A DNA stretch of 32,308 nt from Gammaproteobacteria bacterium (GTDB lineage Bacteria; Pseudomonadota; Gammaproteobacteria; SZUA-229). Position numbers and translations under genes: made by a program. The stretch spans positions 1-32,308 of the forward strand of contig QIDK01000191.1 of the NCBI GenBank assembly GCA_003228405.1, in the 5' to 3' direction. The number at the start of each line of letters is the position of its first letter. Position 1 is the first letter of the stretch. The notes below the pieces were generated by a model. That model had not been told where the DNA came from. It ran no database searches and saw only the letters and a program-made list of their open reading frames with translations. Shown piece by piece: positions 24,125 to 29,840 of this stretch.

Positions 24125-24586
24125 ATGAAAAAAACAATTCTGTATATACTTCTGTTTATACTTCTCTTAATCTCTGTTATTGCCTTATGGTATTTATCAA
24201 TATCTTATATGGTTGATAAGTTTGGTGTGCCCACTGATATTTCATCAGCTAATGATTTATTTGATGGTATTAATTCATTATATTCCGGCCTCGCTCTGGC
24301 GGGAATTGTATTTGTAATATATATGTTAATTGCGGACGTTAAGGCAAATCAGGTGAATCTTGAAAACATGATTCGTTCTAATAATTCGCATCTACAGATT
24401 ATTGCCCTGTCTTCTTTGATACAGGAATGTGATGCTACACTGCATCGATATGATCGCTGGGAAGAAGCCGGAATTCTCGGTGATTATATGAATGCAAAGG
24501 CATCGGTCAGAGATAAAATGAATGCGTATCGGGATAGCCTGGATAAAAAGTATGAGGAAATGCAGGCTGCAGATTTAAAAAAATAA
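24125..24586 (+). CDS. Small two-helix membrane protein, function unknown
   Basis: I do not recognise this 153-aa protein. Residues ~5-27 (TILYILLFILLLISVIALWY) and ~53-72 (YSGLALAGIVFVIYMLIADV) are strong hydrophobic segments; between them is a ~25-residue polar loop with DISSANDLFDGINSLYSG. The C-terminal half is soluble and helical (LIQECDATLHRYDRWEEAG, then SVRDKMNAYRDSLDKKYEEM), ending KK. The layout of two helices plus a cytoplasmic coiled-coil-like tail, with the SGLALAGIVF segment, recalls membrane proteins annotated only as hypothetical in proteobacteria. It is alone between the pdh genes and a convergent operon, behind a CRP-type palindrome and a terminator-like hairpin. Coding character is good: clean ATG, no competing frame. 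Confidence 0.75.
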   Translation: MKKTILYILLFILLLISVIALWYLSISYMVDKFGVPTDISSANDLFDGINSLYSGLALAGIVFVIYMLIADVKANQVNLENMIRSNNSHLQIIALSSLIQECDATLHRYDRWEEAGILGDYMNAKASVRDKMNAYRDSLDKKYEEMQAADLKK

Positions 24587-24615: not shown

Positions 24616-25839
24616 TTAAAAATAATATGCAATATCTAGCTGAATAAAATCGTCCTGCTCAATACCCTTGAACCGGCTAAGATTGAAAATATTATTGAAC
24701 ATGCGCACTTCCAGTGTTGCAGTCCAGCTATCGGCAAAACGTTTACTGGCTTCTAAACTTATTAATCTTTCCTGACGGTCTAAATCATAAATAATACCCA
24801 GTAATGCTTCGCTTGAATCAGCATCGTTCATTGCCAGGCGCATGCCCAGCATAATATCGTTTTGAAAAAATGAAGTTGACAGTTCGCCACGATCATCATA
24901 AAGATATTCCATTACCAGCCCTAAATCGGCATCTGATTCGGCAATACCAACAAAGGTGTATTCAAAACCTCCAGTCAGGGCGATAAAAGATTCATCAATA
25001 AATTGAATGGTAGTGTAATCAATATTCTGCCAGTCACGGGCGATGACTTCCAGTTTCCATAGCCAGGCTTCCGTAGTCAGTTGAGCATCAATACTGGCCT
25101 GTTGCATCTGTGGATAATGCAGGCTTAAAACCTGCCTGCCATTATTTATACCGGGTATAAATAATGGTTCACGGCTGGTGCCATTAAAATAGCCGAGGCC
25201 AAGTTCAAGCTCACCGAAATACTGAAACCAGCGCAGGGCATAATCTATATTTTTCTGTTTATCGGGTGATTCATAACTTACCTGGTTTGTGTCAACTACA
25301 GGAATGGCACGGGGCCTGCCATTAATGCCCTGAAATGTGCGTTCTCTGAAATAGGGTAGTATAAATAGATCAACCGTACCCCAGTCTTTTTCAAAGCTGG
25401 CCTTAAGCATGGGCTGACCTAATTTGTCTTCAAAATCAATATTTTCAACATTATCAGTTTGATTAATAACATCAACCAGATGTTGCGATTCAGTGACCCC
25501 CCAGTAAACTTTGCTAATACCCAGGCGTAATTCCCAGCTATCAAAAACCTGTTCATAATGTAGTTCTCGAATATCACCGTGGGTACGTTCTTTATCATAC
25601 TGGTCTATGCGAATAAAGGGAGTGAAGGTAATGCTTTTCTCATTGTCACTCCATGATGTGTAATATTCTGGTTCGGCAGAGAGTGATACATAGTTATTAT
25701 ACTGTTGAGGATTTACAGGCAATGGTTGATACAGAAAATATCGATTCTGCACAGCAATATTGCCAGACCACTCAGCCCGGGCATGTGATGTAAATATTAA
25801 TAGTATAAAAAAATATAGGGCAGTGGCATTGTAATTCAT
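24616..25839 (-). CDS. Outer-membrane beta-barrel protein, exporter-associated
   Basis: 407 aa with a signal peptide (~1-22, hydrophobic ALYFFILLIFTSHARA, cleavage after ARA) and a mature chain of alternating amphipathic strands rich in Tyr, Trp, Phe and acidic residues. It ends DIAYYF, with the terminal Phe typical of BAM-inserted barrels. Motifs such as WELRLGISKVYWGVTESQHL and YALRWFQYFGELELGLGYF resemble the DUF1302-like/alginate-export-like barrels often encoded next to MMPL-type exporters; I cannot name the exact family. Last gene of a four-gene operon (34 bp after the LolA-like gene), so it is likely the outer-membrane endpoint of that pathway. Weak ribosome site (GAGC), consistent with coupled reading. 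Confidence 0.75.
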   Translation of the reverse strand: MNYNATALYFFILLIFTSHARAEWSGNIAVQNRYFLYQPLPVNPQQYNNYVSLSAEPEYYTSWSDNEKSITFTPFIRIDQYDKERTHGDIRELHYEQVFDSWELRLGISKVYWGVTESQHLVDVINQTDNVENIDFEDKLGQPMLKASFEKDWGTVDLFILPYFRERTFQGINGRPRAIPVVDTNQVSYESPDKQKNIDYALRWFQYFGELELGLGYFNGTSREPLFIPGINNGRQVLSLHYPQMQQASIDAQLTTEAWLWKLEVIARDWQNIDYTTIQFIDESFIALTGGFEYTFVGIAESDADLGLVMEYLYDDRGELSTSFFQNDIMLGMRLAMNDADSSEALLGIIYDLDRQERLISLEASKRFADSWTATLEVRMFNNIFNLSRFKGIEQDDFIQLDIAYYF

Positions 25840-25873
25840 TACAGCTGCTCAAATTGTAAAATTATATTATTAA

Positions 25874-26668
25874 TTATTTAGCGCGTTTTAGACTGTTACG
25901 GTTGAAGTCTTTATCGGTTAAACCGGTTTTGAACTTATAATTTTCAAAGTTAAGTATGGTCGATTTTCCGGTCTGGTGGTTAACCATATACATTATGTCA
26001 GCGCGCCAGAATTTATTCAGATATTGCTGGTAATTACTAAAAGTAAGCGTTTTTAATAATGTATTTTTACGATCATAAAACTCTATTTTCTCAGGTCTAT
26101 ATTCCTGTTTGTTTATCCATGTAATCTGCCGTGTGTAGCCTGAGTATTTATAGGCCGGGTAGCGTTCTACTACAAAACTATCAATGCCATTATAAACTTC
26201 ATCTTTAATGTATTTGTAGCTGTATTTATCTACCTCCTGGGAGGAAATATCTTCATAAGCAAATTCACTGCCCATAAATGGGCCGGATTTATTTTTAGAG
26301 CTAATGCGTTTAACTCGTTTCAATGCGGGTAAATACAGCCACTGGTCATCGGGATCAAGTGCATGTGAATAGGTGAGGGCTGCAGTGCCTTTTATATCCC
26401 TGGGGGTATCAAAAATTGACAGGCTTTTATCGCCATCACCCGTTACTTCCAGGGTTTTTATTCTAACTTCGCGGGTATTGGTCTGACCCTGTTTGTTTTT
26501 CAGTTCCATTAACATATTGGCAGTTGAGTCAATAAACCCGGTGTCACGTTTGTCTGCTTCAATGGCTATTTCAAGGCCTCGAGCCACAGCATCTGCATAT
26601 ACTGTTGTGAAACAGCTTAAAAGAATAAGTGAAACTGTTAAGCTATAAATCGTTTTTTTAATTTTCAT
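25874..26668 (-). CDS. Periplasmic LolA-like lipoprotein-sorting-type protein
   Basis: 264 aa with a signal peptide (~1-25, KIKKTIYSLTVSLILLSCF..VYADA). The mature part has the pattern of the outer-membrane lipoprotein-sorting (LolA-like, Pfam LolA_like/COG2834-like) family encoded with RND exporters: GLEIAIEADKRDTGF at the start, LMELKNKQGQTNTREVRIK, DPDDQWLYLPALKRVKRISS, GPFMGSEFAYEDIS, then YTRQITWINKQEYRPEKIEF and the C-terminal TGKSTILNFENYKFKTGL. Such folds hold acyl chains in a half-barrel, so it may ferry a lipid or lipid-like cargo across the periplasm. It lies 11 bp after the exporter gene, with AAGGA 8 nt before its ATG. The Cys at ~19 lacks a clear +1 lipobox, so lipidation is unlikely. 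Confidence 0.82.
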   Translation of the reverse strand: MKIKKTIYSLTVSLILLSCFTTVYADAVARGLEIAIEADKRDTGFIDSTANMLMELKNKQGQTNTREVRIKTLEVTGDGDKSLSIFDTPRDIKGTAALTYSHALDPDDQWLYLPALKRVKRISSKNKSGPFMGSEFAYEDISSQEVDKYSYKYIKDEVYNGIDSFVVERYPAYKYSGYTRQITWINKQEYRPEKIEFYDRKNTLLKTLTFSNYQQYLNKFWRADIMYMVNHQTGKSTILNFENYKFKTGLTDKDFNRNSLKRAK

Positions 26669-26679
26669 TTGTATAGTCC

Positions 26680-28974
26680 TTAAGCTTTTATTTTTTTATC
26701 AGAATCAATGGCCATTAAAATGGGTGGTAATAATAAAAAATCCAGCAGCAGTGCTATAGCGATAATGATACTGGTCATTAAACCCATGCCTGCATTGAGT
26801 TCAAATGAAGACTGGGCCAGTATCATAAAGCCTGCAATGAGAACAGCTGAGGTAACCCACAATGCTACGCCCACATTTTTATAGGCATAACGCACTGCCT
26901 GCTGACTATCCAGCCCCTGTTCCTCTCTGGCACGAATATATTTACTGATAAAGTGAATTGTATCATCCACCACAATACCTAATGTCATTGCGGTTACCAC
27001 GGAGAGTGCCAGCCCTACCTCACCCACAATTAAGCCCCAGATACCAAATGCAACTCCGGCGGGAAACAGATTGGGTACCAGGCTTATTAAACCATATTTA
27101 ACCGACTTAAGTGCAATAACCAGTATCAGTGAGATTAGAATCAGTGCAGCTGTGGTTCCGCTTAACATACTAATAATATTACGTTTGCCAATATGTGCAA
27201 ACATAATTGATGGGCTGGCACCATCGGTTACGAGGTCTGGTGTATTTAGTTTCATCCAGTTATTAGCGCGTTGTTCCAGCGCCAGTATTTCATTCGATGA
27301 AATAGTTTTTAGCACTACATTTACTTTGGTTGACTGCTTGGCGACATCGATCTGATTATTTAAATCCAGCCCATAGGGCAGTGACATTTCATAGAGCAGT
27401 AAATATTGCGCACCCAGTTCTCTGCTTTCTGGTAATTTATAATATGACTCATCATCCCCGTGCATATTTTTATTGAGGCGTTTGAATGTGTCAGTAATGG
27501 TGCTGATATGTATGGCTTCGTCCTGTTGTTCATACCAGCGTGAAAATTTTTCAACCTGAGCCAGAAAATCAGGCCGGCTTACACCTTCTTTTTCACCACT
27601 GTCTAAGGAGTAGGCAATGGTGTAGGTGCCGGTGAGATTGTTAGTTGTAAAATCAGTGTCACGTCTGAATTCAATTGATTCATCGAAGTAATTAACAAAC
27701 ACGTCATTTAGATCATTGAGTGGAATCATGGCTATAAGAACTAACACTGCAACACTTAGCGAGATGAGCAGGGTGTTGCGCTTCTTAACCACAAAATCGC
27801 CTAATTTATCCATTACCCCGGTTCCAGACACAAAGTGTCTGGCATTAATCGGTAGAATATACATAATTGCGGGCAAAAAACTAACGGTTAGAATAAATGC
27901 GCCAACAACACCAAAGGTAGATATATTTCCCAGGTCAGCAAACGGCGGTGCATCACTTGAATTCAGGCTTAAAAAACCTAATGCTGTTGTAATGCTGGTG
28001 AGAAATATAGGCATAAAGTTAACGCGCATGCTTTCTACAATAGCATCGTGTTTACTCATGCCTTTATGAATTTCCTGGAGCATGGTGACCAGCAGATGAA
28101 CGGCACCGGCTATGGCGATAGTTAAAATAATAATCGGTGCAGATGCAGAAGGTGGTGTAAGTTTTATACCCGTGTAGCCGCCGGCTCCCATGCCGATAAC
28201 AATTGCAAAGATCACCAGAATAAGGGTTGCTGCTGTTCCGCTAAAGCCTTTGAGTAATAATAGAAGTACCACCGTGATCACGCCAAAAGCTATTGGAATT
28301 AAAGTTTTTCCATCGGCCATACTGGCTTCGGGAAATGCATTATTCATCATGCTCATACCCGCAAGACGGAATTCAATGTCCGGATATTTTACTTTTGCAT
28401 CCGCCAGCATTTTTCGTGCATAGGCAACCGTTTCCGGGTTTTCTTTCATCTGATCAATGCCCGGTAACTGTATGGTGATATTAACGCCCGTATGGGCGGC
28501 ATCGGCCGAGATCAGTCGTTTTGCCAGCATCGGTTCTTTAAGAGCAACCTTTTTTGCATAGCTAAGCTCATCAGTGCCCATTGATAGTGGCTCTGTTACC
28601 AGATCATTAACTATAAGGTCATCTTCTCTGGCGTAGGTGTGCTGGAAATTGGTAACAGAATCAACCCGAATAGAGTGGGGGATTTGCCAGGCTTCTTCAG
28701 TTATCGCCTGTACGGCAGAAAGGGTCTGGGGGGTGAAAACATCTCCATTTTTCGGAGAGATGACAAATAACACATTGTCATCTTTGGTATAGGTATTCTG
28801 TAAATGCTCAAAAGCATTTAATTGCGGATTATCTTTGCTGAAAAAAACTCGATAATCATTAGAGAAAGGCATTAAGTTGGGTGCGCCCCTGCCTATTACG
28901 ACTACGACTACAAGTGACAGTGCAATGACCAGGTAGCGCCATTTTAATATCCATTCGGTGTATCTGACGAGCAT
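26680..28974 (-). CDS. MMPL/RND superfamily exporter (COG1033 type)
   Basis: Inner-membrane proton-driven transporter of 764 aa with the two-fold RND layout. TM1 is at ~13-30 (YLVIALSLVVVVVIG), followed by the family marker SNDYRVFFSKDNPQLNAFE, a periplasmic domain to ~222, TM2-6 ~225-385, TM7 ~403-422, a second periplasmic domain and TM8-12 ~620-760. The sterol-sensing-like region and GIVVDDTIHFISKYIRAREE in the second half are typical of hydrophobe exporters of this group, unlike HAE1 drug pumps, which are ~1000 aa and use a membrane fusion protein. AGGAG 6 nt before the ATG. Second gene of the TetR operon (29-bp gap) and directly before the LolA-like and barrel genes. Substrate not predictable. 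Confidence 0.92.
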   Translation of the reverse strand: MLVRYTEWILKWRYLVIALSLVVVVVIGRGAPNLMPFSNDYRVFFSKDNPQLNAFEHLQNTYTKDDNVLFVISPKNGDVFTPQTLSAVQAITEEAWQIPHSIRVDSVTNFQHTYAREDDLIVNDLVTEPLSMGTDELSYAKKVALKEPMLAKRLISADAAHTGVNITIQLPGIDQMKENPETVAYARKMLADAKVKYPDIEFRLAGMSMMNNAFPEASMADGKTLIPIAFGVITVVLLLLLKGFSGTAATLILVIFAIVIGMGAGGYTGIKLTPPSASAPIIILTIAIAGAVHLLVTMLQEIHKGMSKHDAIVESMRVNFMPIFLTSITTALGFLSLNSSDAPPFADLGNISTFGVVGAFILTVSFLPAIMYILPINARHFVSGTGVMDKLGDFVVKKRNTLLISLSVAVLVLIAMIPLNDLNDVFVNYFDESIEFRRDTDFTTNNLTGTYTIAYSLDSGEKEGVSRPDFLAQVEKFSRWYEQQDEAIHISTITDTFKRLNKNMHGDDESYYKLPESRELGAQYLLLYEMSLPYGLDLNNQIDVAKQSTKVNVVLKTISSNEILALEQRANNWMKLNTPDLVTDGASPSIMFAHIGKRNIISMLSGTTAALILISLILVIALKSVKYGLISLVPNLFPAGVAFGIWGLIVGEVGLALSVVTAMTLGIVVDDTIHFISKYIRAREEQGLDSQQAVRYAYKNVGVALWVTSAVLIAGFMILAQSSFELNAGMGLMTSIIIAIALLLDFLLLPPILMAIDSDKKIKA

Positions 28975-29003
28975 CGGGTATCTCCTTTTAACTTTATTTC
29001 ATT

Positions 29004-29804
29004 TTATTTCATTGTATTTGTAGGTGCTCCTGGAGCAGGATCTACAGAGTTATTTTCAAGTTGTTTTATTTCTTCTGCATATAATTCACTGCAGAGTTTT
29101 TCGCGCAATTCATAAATATCAAATTCACTACTCAGGGGCTGCCATTGATAGCTATCTAATAATTTATGGCTGTTCACCCAGGTCATTTCCAGTGGTTGTT
29201 GCATGCCCAGCCTGTCAAAGGGGATACCTGAAAGATGCAAAAGGTTTGAGCCATAACCCATGGACCATAAACCCAGTAAAATGCTATCTGGCACAAAGGG
29301 CTGACCTGCTGGAATATCACCATCTCTTATTGCATCATTTATAATTTCTAAAACAATACCGGTGATTTGCTGTTCTAACTGGAGTAATTCAAGCTGCTTT
29401 TCTTCCGGGATTTTCTCTCTGACCGCCGCGGATTTTATGATTTGCATATTCTGCAGTTCAGCCGGGTGGAGCAGTGCATATAAACTATGGGCAATGCCAA
29501 TCGCCGCAATGCGTTCGCGGTGGCTAGCCGAGTAATTTTTAGCCCGGCTAAACATTTCAATTAAATTAGTGACGCAACGGCAGCTAATGGCAGAAATGAT
29601 TTCTTCCTTGCTGGTAAAGTGGTTGTAAACCGTGCCTTTGGAGTACTCAATTTCTGCAGCGACGCGCTCCATGGTCAGACTATGCAGGCCTTCCTGTTGC
29701 AAAATTATCTGTGCTGTATCAAGAATAAGCTGCTCACGTTCATATAACTCGCGTTGCTTGCGGGTTAGTTGTGTCGGGCTGCATGATAAGTCTGGATTTG
29801 TCAT
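29004..29804 (-). CDS. TetR/AcrR family regulator of the exporter operon
   Basis: 266 aa. The N-terminal helix-turn-helix (~18-65) is typical: REQLILDTAQIILQQEGLHS, LTMERVAAEIEYSKGTVYNH, FTSKEEI. The C-terminal ligand domain is helical and unassigned. First gene of the operon with the exporter, LolA-like and barrel genes, so it probably represses them all and itself until a ligand binds. Its promoter (TTGACA, 18 bp, TATTAT) has a 13-bp palindrome in the spacer. The predicted start of transcription falls on or next to the ATG at 29804 and no ribosome site precedes it, so the mRNA may be leaderless. No other start within the first helices is available, since the next Met is inside the helix-turn-helix. 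Confidence 0.9.
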   Translation of the reverse strand: MTNPDLSCSPTQLTRKQRELYEREQLILDTAQIILQQEGLHSLTMERVAAEIEYSKGTVYNHFTSKEEIISAISCRCVTNLIEMFSRAKNYSASHRERIAAIGIAHSLYALLHPAELQNMQIIKSAAVREKIPEEKQLELLQLEQQITGIVLEIINDAIRDGDIPAGQPFVPDSILLGLWSMGYGSNLLHLSGIPFDRLGMQQPLEMTWVNSHKLLDSYQWQPLSSEFDIYELREKLCSELYAEEIKQLENNSVDPAPGAPTNTMK

Positions 29805-29810
29805 CGGCTA

Positions 29811-29840
29811 ATAATATGACGATACGTCAAAAAATGTCAA
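29811..29840 (-). promoter_or_regulatory. TetR operon promoter with embedded operator
   Basis: On the minus strand TTGACA (29840-29835), 18-bp spacer, TATTAT (29816-29811, 5 of 6). The spacer contains TGACG ATA CGTCA (29817-29829), a perfect palindrome well placed for repression by the TetR protein that follows. Predicted start near 29804. Confidence 0.7.

Follow-up and report, generated by a model that had tools for sequence, protein, structure and literature searches.

To our knowledge, only a few routes are known by which lipids and other hydrophobic molecules cross the periplasm. The AmeABCD system of Castellaniella defragrans resembles the locus described here in that an RND pump of the HAE3 type, a periplasmic protein of the LolA superfamily and an outer-membrane barrel are encoded in one operon, with neither a classical adaptor nor TolC; when it is deleted, cells tolerate monoterpenes less well and accumulate more Nile Red (PMC6394551). 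The sterol transport proteins BstA, BstB and BstC of Methylococcus capsulatus likewise provide an RND pump, a periplasmic part and an outer-membrane-associated part, one per layer (PMC10942540). By their description, xanthomonadin and aryl-polyene clusters contain adjacent exporter-like and LolA genes (arcP/arcQ) within a cluster for a lipid-like pigment (PMC3949708). In Thalassolituus oleivorans, TOL_3187 is described as a fusion of MMPL and LolA-like domains and is followed by the porin-like TOL_3188 (PMC6304351). Finally, the acinetin-505 operon of Acinetobacter baumannii includes an RND transporter (A1S_0116) and a porin-related protein (A1S_0117), and the lipopeptide is reported in spent medium (PMC5376624).

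We analysed a window of 32,308 nt, the whole of contig QIDK01000191.1 (assembly GCA_003228405.1, Gammaproteobacteria bacterium, SZUA-229). Its minus strand encodes, in order, a TetR regulator, an MMPL pump, a LolA-like protein and a barrel, separated by gaps of 29, 11 and 34 bp. This arrangement, reported in a first-pass annotation, agrees exactly with the open reading frame coordinates. The features are:

29811–29840, minus strand: sigma-70-like operon promoter, TTGACA-18 bp-TATTAT, matching the consensus at 11 of 12 positions
29817–29829, no strand assigned: candidate TetR operator TGACGTATCGTCA in the spacer of the operon promoter
29004–29804, minus strand: TetR-family regulator, first gene of the operon (266 aa; PF00440; family orthologues in the same place)
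26680–28974, minus strand: MMPL/HAE3-like RND inner-membrane pump (764 aa; PF03176; TIGR00921 below cut-off)
25874–26668, minus strand: LolA-like periplasmic carrier, as assigned from PF17131, the structural model and the 3BK5 match (264 aa)
24616–25839, minus strand: outer-membrane beta-barrel, as assigned from the structural model and matches to OprD/Occ, BenF-like porins and AlgE (407 aa)

Between the genes that flank the operon we found neither a membrane-fusion protein nor a TolC-type channel gene, the parts of a classical tripartite (HAE1) RND system, in agreement with the first-pass annotation. A plus-strand frame of 153 aa (24125–24586), with hydrophobic N-terminal segments and no clear family, is convergent with the barrel gene.

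The pump carries the MMPL domain (PF03176) in two stretches, at 97.5 bits against a Pfam cut-off of 20.5, and its best NCBIfam match is HAE3 (TIGR00921), at 155 bits and under the cut-off of 351.9. Twelve helices had been predicted; a crude hydropathy scan recovers 10 strong membrane segments, arranged 1+5+1+5 as in RND pumps, and the other two are weaker, consistent with that count but not strictly proven. Both aspartates of the motif GIVVDDT (D670 and D671) are invariant across 40 aligned sequences. In a pump tree that was built without the Acinetobacter pump and AmeD and that carries a long-branch warning (L201 among the branches concerned), the window clade has support of 100/100 and takes in both PKS-linked branches, and the pumps of three DUF1302-linked (Ame-type) loci stand apart on a branch of 4.22, also at 100/100.

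The periplasmic protein, which by eye has a signal peptide, matches LolA_like (PF17131) at 213.9 bits (cut-off 30) and DUF1329 at 33.4 bits, above the cut-off of 23.1 but far lower than PF17131; Pfam gives no match to the LolA family proper. Its nearest solved relative is 3BK5 from Vibrio parahaemolyticus (phmmer E 4e-99). The predicted structure (pLDDT 91.6) aligns with 3BK5 at Z 34.5, with Porphyromonas gingivalis LolA3 at Z 30.1 and with LolA structures of several species at Z of about 13 (12.9–13.4 for three of them), and the protein models as a LolA-type half-barrel, as the earlier reading had anticipated. In genome G000, a second LolA_like gene (contig C29) adjoins a MacB/FtsX gene and was set aside as part of a different system, and an MMPL match on contig C49 is SecD.

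Neither Pfam nor NCBIfam gives a match for the barrel, and it matches no PDB sequence either as a single sequence or as a profile. Its 407 residues end in YYF, with the terminal Phe noted previously. By a count of the listed elements, the predicted structure (pLDDT 91.9) contains about 18 transmembrane strands; at Z of about 23–24 it resembles the OprD/Occ porins, a BenF-like porin and AlgE, the alginate exporter. The protein thus models as an 18-strand barrel of the OprD/AlgE type. Residues 110–141, a long inter-strand loop, form its most conserved stretch (alignment A4), and so strict a conservation may point to a gate or docking site. A DUF1302 match was found in one of 59 barrel relatives. 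In hhalign the barrel aligns over its full length with a set of DUF1302-scoring barrels (A8; Prob 99.3, E 5e-20), the genes of several of which adjoin LolA-like genes, whereas there is no alignment with the classical DUF1302 set (A7; Prob 1.5). We have therefore dropped direct DUF1302 membership in favor of the A8 bridge, and the trio is best regarded as a sister of the DUF1302/DUF1329/RND systems.

The regulator has a TetR_N domain (PF00440, 50 bits), and the palindrome in its promoter occupies the end of the 18-bp spacer. The palindrome TGACGnnnCGTCA, which lies within the tetR promoter, is present at all 15 intact tetR loci examined in the family, and it is also found at four distant loci (L127, L130, L131 and L134), in two copies at two of these. 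Among the organisms with this operator at the locus are Pontibacterium granulatum and Amphritea balenae, both culturable non-pathogens. In the 3.09-Mb genome TGACGnnnCGTCA occurs once, compared with four occurrences of the reversed control pattern, which suggests that the repressor is probably dedicated to the window operon; in other genomes of the family, additional copies appear at about the background rate. As judged from the sequence, TetR may repress the operon at this predicted operator. Other branches of the trio have different TetR subfamilies, some with different palindromes upstream. Upstream of the MMPL gene at L060 and L040, tetR is interrupted and the palindrome is changed in its right arm, which looks like a joint decay of repressor and operator. 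The tetR start codon lies six bases past the −10 box (29804–29816), so the message may be leaderless; the distance is similarly short at the tetR loci of relatives.

As had been proposed, the genes of the three envelope proteins constitute a single conserved unit. Where the flanking sequence is long enough, almost all homologous loci keep the gene order, both inside the family and at great distance from it. A LolA-like match is present in 52 of 54 genomes of the same family, and at 20 family loci the run of TetR, MMPL, LolA and barrel genes as a rule adjoins TruD, with a variable opposite flank. At 10 of these 20 a GDSL esterase gene adjoins tetR; it lies outside the operator-controlled unit and was assigned to the neighbourhood rather than to the operon. 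A scan of named genomes gave at least 553 barrel relatives, of which 80 loci were kept; most of these are gammaproteobacterial, and one each is labelled Desulfobulbaceae and Nitrospirae. Where at least 3.4 kb of upstream sequence was available (63 loci), LolA was found upstream in 55, MMPL in 53 and both in 52, and at 11 loci MMPL and/or LolA was not directly upstream. Rare co-occurrence of the homologues, which would have spoken against the pathway, was not seen: among 274 genomes of the class, at strict cut-offs, barrel and LolA were found together in 92, the barrel alone in six and LolA alone in none, counts whose Fisher value takes no account of shared ancestry and should not be taken for an independent probability. 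Of 398 genomes drawn from across the phylum, 41 have the barrel. At most loci the trio stands alone, with different TetR subfamilies upstream.

Some loci depart from this layout. Solo barrel genes with no MMPL or LolA nearby occur at L078, L089, L090, L101, L128 and L138, several of them in Beggiatoa-like bacteria. A 4HBT thioesterase gene lies between LolA and barrel at the three loci from the genus of the window, and at four Thiotrichaceae loci (L114, L121, L124 and L133) that position is taken by a PEMT-like methyltransferase gene, an assignment for which Pfam was run on L114 and L121; both genes are absent from the window, and in the relatives both are compatible with lipid chemistry. At the PEMT-like loci the TetR is of a different type, and three of these loci have CATACCGACYGGTATG upstream; at L133, MMPL and LolA are also separated by a MAPEG gene. 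In a further variant (L174 and similar) the order is LolA, barrel, MMPL, followed by a 296-aa protein of unknown type and a 909-aa TPR protein.

At L190, an MMPL-LolA fusion, in which Pfam finds both domains, is followed by a barrel of the window type. More diverged relatives connect the trio to biosynthesis. In genome G249 (L205, L201), a reducing PKS (KS-AT-DH-KR-ACP) and a BioF/SPT-family enzyme lead directly into MMPL, LolA and barrel genes in one run, and Sulfitobacter plasmids have the order PKS, MMPL, LolA, GalE, barrel. The Acinetobacter locus L218 fits the acinetin-505 operon (A1S_0112–0119) in reading frame lengths and domains (PMC5376624). Its RND protein holds the domains MMPL and PF17131 in addition to an N-terminal Polyketide_cyc2 domain, and the A8 barrel profile matches the gene that follows with a score of 2e-45; the available part of the publication mentions neither the LolA part nor the likeness to the trio. 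The statement in the first-pass annotation that no biosynthesis gene is linked is thus true of the window and its close relatives and false for the wider clade, and its suggestion of a lipid-like cargo is favored by the linked enzymes of the diverged relatives. In two genomes (L206, L211) a diverged MMPL/LolA-like pair adjoins AMP-ligase and class-III aminotransferase genes, possibly an acyl-amide pathway. Two groups of candidates were rejected: L191 and L192, where proteins with an odd fusion of response-regulator and LolA_like domains are encoded beside OEP channel genes and do not represent the trio, and L214 as a lipid cluster, since the genes downstream of MMPL-LolA there are rsmG, parA/parB and atp genes.

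We favor the hypothesis, with a probability of roughly 0.6, that the operon encodes a three-part exporter under the control of a repressor, with a hydrophobic or acyl-chain molecule as cargo. TetR would sit on the palindrome inside its own promoter and silence the operon until it is released by a ligand. Cargo would then be removed from the inner membrane by the proton-driven MMPL pump, ferried across the periplasm by the LolA-like half-barrel and passed into or through the outer membrane by the 18-strand barrel, the three parts being presumably in physical contact. In the window genome, whose assembly is 90.6% complete, there is no match to hopene cyclase (TIGR01507) and no ketosynthase of PKS size, all ketosynthase matches lying in frames of 353–433 aa. 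A special polyketide is therefore less likely to be the cargo than a common lipid, a derivative of a fatty acid or a hydrophobe from outside; that the trio stands alone in this genome likewise makes a dedicated secondary metabolite the less likely cargo. Three observations weigh against the exporter reading: the biosynthesis-linked relatives are diverged (the window pump is 35% identical to the Sulfitobacter pump and about 23% identical to that of the acinetin locus), the full MMPL and LolA pair is lacking directly upstream at the 11 barrel loci noted above, and the response of TOL_3187 and TOL_3188 to an alkane could mean uptake.

That response speaks for an uptake route that leads inward from the barrel and serves nutrients of a hydrophobic kind, for example fatty acids or long-chain alkanes: on C28 alkane TOL_3187 was raised 42-fold, and TOL_3188 was seen only on this substrate (PMC6304351). 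The barrel model also resembles the uptake porins OprD, Occ and BenF-like, although the exporter AlgE matches it equally well. RND pumps are exporters as a rule. Together with the synthesis-linked relatives, which make products for export, this leads us to regard uptake as quite improbable. Efflux of solvents or toxicants, in which TetR senses an external hydrophobe that the pump expels and no endogenous lipid is involved, agrees with the action of AmeABCD on monoterpenes (PMC6394551), with the DUF1329 score of the LolA-like protein, with the lack of a detectable hopene cyclase or PKS in the genome and with a trio that mostly stands alone behind varied TetR subfamilies. This explanation is unlikely, if far from negligible, given that diverged members are tied to lipid and lipopeptide synthesis, that the pump lies a long way from the AmeD-type pumps linked to DUF1302 and that the YCF48-type fourth protein of AmeABCD is absent.

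The shared LolA fold and the automatic annotation of relatives as lipoprotein-sorting proteins could also point to a second Lol branch, with the LolA-like protein carrying lipoproteins. We consider this very improbable: Pfam assigns PF17131 and not LolA proper, the operon has no LolCDE-type ABC genes, and LolA3, a P. gingivalis member of the fold group, binds LolB only weakly (PMC13103446). Least probable of all is that the genes are merely co-transcribed and their products act separately, since gene order is kept over great distances and two of the three parts have been fused, even if some barrel genes are solo.

We return to the exporter hypothesis and to the described systems. The window pump reaches 92 bits against the HpnN model (cut-off 752) and only 7 bits against that of BstA (cut-off 1400); it shares with the hopanoid transporter HpnN the MMPL/HAE3 type without belonging to that family, and the window genome has no detected hopene cyclase. 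Pigment biosynthesis genes surround the xanthomonadin and aryl-polyene genes (PMC3949708), in contrast to the window operon. TOL_3187 and TOL_3188 share the layout of L190, and TOL_3187 is fused, unlike the window genes. AmeABCD differs as follows: AmeA is a 605-aa DUF1302 protein and AmeB a 451-aa DUF1329 protein (PMC6394551), and there is a fourth periplasmic protein of the YCF48/BNR type, AmeC, whose counterpart is present at the DUF1302-type locus L180 and absent from the window operon. The LolA-like protein shares the DUF1329 character of AmeB, whereas the pump lies outside the AmeD lineage as judged from the three DUF1302-linked loci in the tree. The window operon is best seen as a homologous sister of AmeABCD and not as a member. 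In correction of the first-pass annotation, the proposed pathway is neither isolated nor entirely uncharacterised, given that this sister has been tested by deletion and that all three parts recur in the acinetin-505 operon. That operon differs in having MMPL and LolA fused behind Polyketide_cyc2 and in being embedded among NRPS genes, with the A8-group barrel adjacent. We tentatively propose, at somewhat less than even odds, that MMPL-LolA-barrel operons form a single widespread and so far unnamed class, whose members export acylated cargo across the envelope without adaptor or TolC, common in Gammaproteobacteria and present outside them, whose genes are annotated separately, as hypothetical or lipoprotein-sorting, in the records compared. 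The operon of the window, the copies linked to PKS genes and the acinetin operon would all belong to it, with AmeABCD as a sister branch. The dedicated repressor and its predicted operator would make inducer and cargo directly testable, and the acinetin operon offers a system whose likely cargo is already known.
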